From Gammaproteobacteria bacterium (GTDB taxonomy: Bacteria; Pseudomonadota; Gammaproteobacteria; Steroidobacterales; PWYM01), in NCBI GenBank assembly GCA_003567855.1, contig PWYM01000265.1, forward strand, positions 1 to 37,174: a stretch of 37,174 nt of DNA, written 5' to 3'. How positions within the stretch are numbered: position 1 is the first letter of the stretch; each line of letters opens with the position of its first letter. The notes below the pieces were generated by a model. That model was not told where the DNA came from and searched no databases. It worked only from the letters and a program-made list of their open reading frames with translations. The position numbers were made by a program, and so were the translations under genes. Positions 30,184 to 36,381 of the stretch are shown in pieces.

Positions 30184-30260
30184 AACTTCGTCGAACGTGC
30201 CACGAAAAGCGCGCATCTTTTCCTCAGTTCGCCGCGTTCTCTGGCGCCCGGGTCCGGCGA

Positions 30261-30290
30261 TTGACGCTGTATACAACCGTGCAGTACTTT
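30261..30290 (+). promoter_or_regulatory. Candidate sigma-70 promoter of gltB
   Basis: TTGACG (30261-30266, five of six consensus matches) is followed after 18 bases by TACTTT (30285-30290). The predicted start of transcription, about 30297, falls inside a perfect palindrome at 30292-30311. The leader to the gltB ATG would be about 160 bases, GC-rich, ending in a short GGGCG/CGCCC hairpin (30435-30448) that abuts the G-rich ribosome-binding stretch at 30449-30453. Confidence 0.55.
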
Positions 30291-30291
30291 A

Positions 30292-30311
30292 GTCGGCCGC
30301 ATGCGGCCGAC
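30292..30311. promoter_or_regulatory. Perfect 20-bp palindrome at the gltB start site, candidate operator
   Basis: GTCGGCCGCATGCGGCCGAC is identical to its reverse complement over all 20 bases. It begins two bases after the predicted -10 element and covers the predicted transcription start, a typical position for a repressor site. The lack of a spacer makes it a poor RNA hairpin. I do not recognise it as the site of a known regulator. Confidence 0.5.
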
Positions 30312-30458
30312 GGGCTGGCGGCGCCACGCGAATCAGGAGGTCCGCGGCGTCTCCGGCCGCCGCGTCCGGGTCCGGCCGGGGCCGCAATGACCACGGCCGG
30401 TACCGGGTTTCCCCTCTAACGACTCCTGCACCAGGGGCGCGAGCGCCCGGGGGCCGCC

Positions 30459-36381
<5,923 letters not shown>

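Follow-up and report, generated by a model that had tools for sequence, protein, structure and literature searches.

FadR-subfamily GntR regulators bind operators with the consensus GTM-N0-1-KAC and TKGT/ACMA boxes, according to the operator description in PMC4494728. Atu1419 (PDB 6Z74), as described in the structural account of PMC7797058, binds ATGTATACAT via Ser44, Arg45, Thr46, and Arg49, among other residues, and its sites either overlap the -10 element or lie between the -35 and -10 elements. As for glutamate synthase, the passages of PMC5343134 on the proteobacterial regulators of gltBD give ArgR in some taxa and NtrC in others and do not name a GntR protein, and the string GTATAC is absent from the main text of that article.

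The locus that we compared with these systems lies in a 37,174-nt stretch of DNA (the window) from Gammaproteobacteria bacterium PWYM01 (assembly GCA_003567855.1, contig PWYM01000265.1), which is called G000 in our genome comparisons. An earlier note had proposed that a perfect 20-bp palindrome over the predicted transcription start of gltB is the site of a dimeric repressor. We consider it likely, from sequence comparisons, that the control element in this interval is not the 20-bp palindrome but CTGTATACAA, a shorter palindrome in the promoter spacer, and that it is the operator of an FCD-type GntR protein linked to hyuAB genes. The shorter palindrome is probably a switch site through which a regulator of a known type would control genes for nitrogen assimilation and nutrient uptake. 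The features are listed in Table 1.

Table 1. Features of the gltB promoter and of the genes that follow it; coordinates are positions in the window.
Feature	Coordinates	Strand	Remarks
Putative -35 hexamer of gltB, TTGACG	30261..30266	+	ATTGAC (30260-30265) is invariant in 5/5 genus leaders
Candidate operator CTGTATACAA, consensus TTGTATACAA	30267..30276	.	In the -35/-10 spacer; main element
Putative -10 hexamer, TACTTT	30285..30290	+	3/6 consensus bases; missed by promoter scan
Reported 20-bp perfect palindrome GTCGGCCGCATGCGGCCGAC	30292..30311	.	Single genomic copy; congeners lack it; comparative support for function: none
gltB, glutamate synthase large subunit, 1490 aa	30459..34931	+	NCBIfam NF008730 equivalog, 2551 bits (cut-off 1047); Pfam
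gltD, glutamate synthase small subunit	34969..36381	+	TIGR01318, 771 bits (cut-off 483)

The 20-bp palindrome lies in a 275-bp intergenic stretch between the end of a LEA_2-domain gene (30183) and the start of gltB. The interval reads TTGACG, the 18-nt CTGTATACAACCGTGCAG, TACTTT, a single A, and then GTCGGCCGCATGCGGCCGAC; the shorter palindrome falls inside this interval as the earlier note had marked it. Just 3' of the LEA_2 gene, a stem and a T-rich tail form a weak terminator-like structure (30196-30213; one found versus 0.4 expected), as would fit transcription of gltB from a promoter of its own. A scan of the whole window against Rfam gave no match, and a promoter scan gave no sigma-70-type promoter at gltB. 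The plausible -10 element that had been described before the palindrome does exist, as TACTTT, but it shares just three of six bases with the consensus and the scan is blank there; because of these two facts, the predicted start of gltB is uncertain. At the usual distance from this hexamer, transcription would start at about 30296-30298, which is inside the left arm of the 20-bp palindrome.

The palindrome itself is present as described: it is perfect and has no spacer, and no other perfect palindrome in the window is as long (two reach 18 bp and three 16 bp). That it should be very rare by chance was overstated. By chance, a window of this composition should contain 0.16 perfect palindromes of 20 bp or longer under a mononucleotide model and 0.33 under a first-order Markov model, or one per three to six such windows. 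Only the location is unusual, with a chance of about 0.0012-0.0018 for the gltB intergenic stretch. In bases that had been retrieved for other purposes, and are a nonrandom sample, we counted one 20-bp and two 18-bp perfect palindromes for the same genome (108,526 bases, including the window) and zero and three, respectively, for its congeners (161,851 bases).

A search of the 3.5-Mb draft genome for further copies, as the earlier note had suggested, found GTCGGCCGCATGCGGCCGAC just once, and it was still single copy at up to 3 mismatches. Among the congeners, the search at 3 mismatches hit one place in G003 and one in G004, neither of them on the gltB contig; the reversed control pattern hit ten places. 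Over the first 314 residues of GltB, the matches in the four congeneric genomes are 78-80% identical, and none of the four congeners has the palindrome at its gltB promoter; such absence from close relatives is one of the two observations that the note had named in advance as together refuting its proposal. In an alignment of the five leaders, the position pairs of the palindrome match at 10 of 10 in the window species versus 5, 5, 5, and 3 of 10 in the congeners, where the counterpart is a related GC-rich stretch. The palindrome thus shows neither orthologous conservation nor recurrence in the genome.

A dimeric repressor specific to the window species could still use it as an operator at the transcription start. 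The symmetry is perfect, the palindrome is placed over the predicted start, and a palindrome of at least 20 bp has a chance of about 0.002 in the 275-bp stretch; against this, 0.16-0.33 palindromes of such length are expected per window, its own genome holds no near copy, and all four congeners do without it. We consider such an operator very improbable. We also rejected a dispersed element or regulon motif, as there is a single copy and no other at up to 3 mismatches.

The same letters could act in RNA, as a 5'-terminal hairpin of the gltB mRNA that stabilizes the transcript or shapes its leader. The 20-mer folds at -14.9 kcal/mol with an 8-pair stem, and it would head the transcript if the start were 30292. 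However, the full 8-pair hairpin is possible only if transcription begins at or upstream of that position, and from the usual start, in the left arm, the stem would be just partial. Also, the 167-nt leader does not exceed its shuffles in stability (z = -0.97), a U-run is missing downstream, and the inverted repeat is not conserved in the congeners, so that we find this explanation unlikely. With the same z score versus shuffles, we set aside leader RNA structure as the main feature. Overall, the 20-bp palindrome is probably not the control element of gltB. Most likely it arose in the window species from a homologous GC-rich stretch that was not palindromic, and in our view it is a local inverted repeat made perfect in one species.

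Another small structure is found in the leaders of all four congeners (L003-L006): a hairpin whose loop contains GGA lies just 5' of the ribosome-binding site for gltB, and in G002 one of its pairs is changed from C-G to T-A. This hairpin resembles a CsrA/RsmA site. The window has a different GC-rich hairpin at 30420-30458, without GGA.

What is conserved at gltB lies just 5' of the 20-bp palindrome: ATTGAC-N2-TGTATACAA (30260-30276 in the window) is invariant in every one of the five genus leaders. The coding end aside, TGTATACAA (9 bases) and ATTGAC (6 bases) are the two longest invariant runs in the five-leader alignment, which has 342 columns, 97 of them invariant. Allowing up to one mismatch, TTGACNNTGTATACAA (30261-30276 in the window) is found once in each of the five genomes, always at gltB. 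Compared with the 10-bp consensus, the gltB site has one mismatch in the window, G002, and G004 and none in G001 and G003. We thus find support for a dimeric repressor acting on gltB, but by way of CTGTATACAA at 30267-30276 and its counterparts in 5/5 genus members and not with the 20-bp palindrome as the site.

This gltB site is confined to the genus. We examined 110 gltB leaders (five from the genus, 25 from the order, and 80 from named records, including a few possible duplicate genomes and three leaders of less than 500 bases), and GTATAC was found in all five from the genus and, outside it, in L057 alone, far upstream at -318. Just one of the other 105 leaders (L047) comes within one mismatch of TTGTATACAA. 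Besides the five genus members, none of these leaders, from the wider order or from other Gammaproteobacteria, has the spacer operator.

Within the genus, the motif is enriched and recurs before the same genes. Across the five genomes, TGTATACAA has 71 oriented matches, versus 3 for the reversed pattern, and these matches correspond to 54 distinct sites. One base beyond the 8-bp core, the 54 sites prefer T/A on both sides, a preference that is partly built in because the sites were picked by TGTATACAA. The genes around the sites were called by a crude script, and several sites lie inside called ORFs. In each of the five genomes, an HMGL-like gene and a family III CoA-transferase gene diverge from a region with a pair of sites 63-64 bp apart. 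Also in 5/5 genomes, a site precedes ilvC (in G000) or a gene for a PALP-fold enzyme, followed by leuA where the sequence was read that far, and at these promoters too the site is behind TTGACA. A third site found in all five lies 3' of an acyl-CoA dehydrogenase gene and ahead of DUF3450-MotA/ExbB genes, with ExbD and TonB next where the stretch was long enough. A site at TRAP DctM/glutathione S-transferase-like genes was found in three of the five genomes, and several sites precede genes for TonB-dependent receptors. These positions suggest that the energy supply of TonB may be controlled together with TonB-dependent receptors.

We also noticed several details of individual loci. The run DUF3450-ExbB-ExbB-ExbD-TonB, with the same operator ahead, can be read in L136 (1441-5276) and L134 (5989-12123). 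In G004 (contig C57; L182, 2036-2062), two TTGTATACA sites before a glutathione S-transferase-like gene are 19 bp apart, unlike the pairs at 63-64 bp. In G000, two very similar copies of the ilvC promoter and gene start are on separate contigs (C25, L134 near 15956, and C232, L140 near 520), as the result either of a duplication or of strain variation within the assembly.

The recurrence also bears on whether TGTATACAA at gltB might be part of the core promoter, such as a -10 element read as TATACA, rather than an operator. TATACA does resemble a -10 hexamer, and many Pseudomonas gltB leaders have a -10-like TGTACAAT at a similar distance. But the element is symmetric and is paired 63-64 bp apart in divergent promoters, its distance behind TTGAC varies (2 nt at gltB versus 9 nt at ilvC/PALP), and by eye there is no -35-like hexamer 16-18 nt 5' of TATACA. 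A core promoter element seems quite improbable to us.

The candidate regulator for the operator is encoded in a cluster of HMGL, HyuA, and HyuB genes (in the window's genome, G000:C25:15263-15907, minus strand). In the genus, the order behind the double site is HMGL-HyuA-HyuB-GntR. The gene is in the HMGL-HyuAB cluster in four genomes; in G004, it is on a separate contig from the HMGL gene. Every genus genome (5/5) has one close orthologue, with 64-100% identity. The proteins from G003 and G000 have a GntR winged-helix domain (PF00392) and an FCD domain (PF07729), both above cut-off. None of the named NCBIfam GntR equivalogs (PhnR, NanR, CsiR, LldR, FadR, and others) was matched: the best, phnR_burk, scored 104 bits versus a cut-off of 271.5. 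The best PDB match is 6z74_A, which is Atu1419 (E = 4.3e-17, 66 bits), and the segment SRTPVR is identical in Atu1419 and all five genus proteins. The operator form GTM-N0-1-KAC is present, as GTATAC, in the 54 genus sites, which were picked by TGTATACAA. The HyuAB proteins resemble subunits of caprolactamase and acetophenone carboxylase, with scores below the family cut-offs. As the regulator gene is not near gltB, the shared motif is the sole tie between the two.

Outside the genus, the motif is linked to the regulator gene across families. At E ≤ 1e-20, the regulator has a match in 60 of the 296 genomes of the order, including the five genus members. Among regulator-carrying genomes from outside the genus, the 25 with the best loci have 35 occurrences of exact TTGTATACAA and 6 of the reversed control. 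For 20 listed genomes with no regulator match, the counts are 18 and 17, and the two groups of genomes differ in their family make-up. Fourteen of the 35 exact sites, in 8 of the 25 genomes, are no more than 10 kb from the regulator gene, compared with an expectation of about 0.2. At 31 regulator loci (107,760 bases; six of the loci are from the genus), the core TGTATACA is found 5 times, at 4 loci, versus zero times for ACATATGT and two in total for eight other 8-bp palindromes.

TTGTATACAA sites from the order's other families often adjoin orthologues of the regulator. We inspected ten regions near the regulator, which were selected for already having a site there. Five have sites in the HMGL/CoA-transferase divergent promoter, one has sites that flank the GntR gene on both sides, and one has a site just 5' of GntR; in two others the sites are about 2.7 kb beyond the GntR gene, and in the last the site is within the HMGL coding match. 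Two findings speak against the link: 8 of the 25 regulator-carrying genomes lack exact TTGTATACAA, and G018 has four exact TTGTATACAA sites with no regulator match.

The operator could also be real and be bound by some other protein, either a second FCD-type GntR of the genus or a factor from outside the GntR family. Each genus genome does encode at least one further FCD GntR besides the one linked to HyuAB, which makes two or more FCD regulators per genome, and G002 has five FCD matches. We searched around one second FCD gene per genome, leaving out three other matches in G002, and found no TGTATACA within 1.5 kb on either side in any of the five genomes, whereas in several families the sites cluster near the HyuAB-linked GntR. 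We consider another binder rather doubtful.

Returning to the HyuAB-linked GntR as the candidate regulator, we infer from the pattern of sites that it binds them, that it represses rather than activates, and that an effector releases it. At the gltB promoter, a GntR dimer would occupy the spacer that separates the -35 and -10 hexamers and would exclude RNA polymerase; repression is the likeliest mode because a dimer bound in the spacer would compete with the polymerase. The effector that releases the dimer may be a metabolite from the HMGL/HyuAB/CoA-transferase pathway. Other targets of the same protein would be the divergent promoter in its own cluster, the promoter of ilvC or PALP-leuA, the TonB-ExbB-ExbD operon, and several genes for TonB-dependent receptors. 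Glutamate synthesis would thereby be switched together with uptake and the synthesis of branched-chain amino acids. A broader scenario, which we offer tentatively as one possibility, is that a GntR regulator of the HyuAB/HMGL/CoA-transferase pathway became in this genus a multi-pathway regulator of nitrogen and uptake: through copies of its 10-bp operator it may have taken over gltBD, ilvC or PALP-leuA, TonB-ExbBD, and TonB-dependent receptors, and displaced the usual nitrogen regulators at gltB.

If the model holds, a GntR protein with ties to HyuAB-type catabolism and to TonB-dependent uptake controls glutamate synthase in this lineage. Attention moves from the 20-bp palindrome to CTGTATACAA, and in place of a vague "unknown repressor" there are now a named candidate protein, an exact site of 10 bp, and a regulon open to testing.

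This appears to be a system of a known kind, and in the literature on the motif, on GntR proteins, and on gltB control we found no paper that describes a GntR regulon with gltBD, ilvC/leuA, TonB-ExbBD, and HyuAB. Among the matches listed for TTGTATACAA, no title concerned a GntR regulon, and a search for an operon joining hydantoinase, CoA transferase, GntR, and hydroxymethylglutaryl-CoA lyase found no paper. We considered regulation of the HypR type because HypR has the GntR family in common with our candidate, and rejected it because the Streptomyces HypR motif, as given in PMC6608401, differs; section 11 of PMC5343134 gives no motif for proteobacterial HypR.

With ArgR and NtrC, as covered in PMC5343134, the target operon gltBD is the same as here and the protein families are different. 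The FadR-subfamily consensus of PMC4494728 fits TTGTATACAA, whereas a regulon of gltBD, ilvC/leuA, TonB-ExbBD, and HyuAB was not found in that operator description, and the main text of the article lacks the strings "hydantoin" and "glutamate." Atu1419, an FCD/VanR-group GntR protein from Agrobacterium fabrum, differs from the genus regulator in several respects: it controls the degradation of hydroxycinnamates, and it is a tetramer whose sites are 190 bp apart (both as described in PMC7797058). The overall similarity of the two proteins is low (66 bits), and they need not have an effector in common. The likenesses, by the same account of Atu1419 (PMC7797058), are in how DNA is recognized: its operator ATGTATACAT has the core TGTATACA, like the genus sites; the DNA-contacting segment SRTPVR, four of whose residues contact DNA in Atu1419, is common to the genus proteins; and Atu1419 has two sites in one intergenic region, like the double site of the genus.
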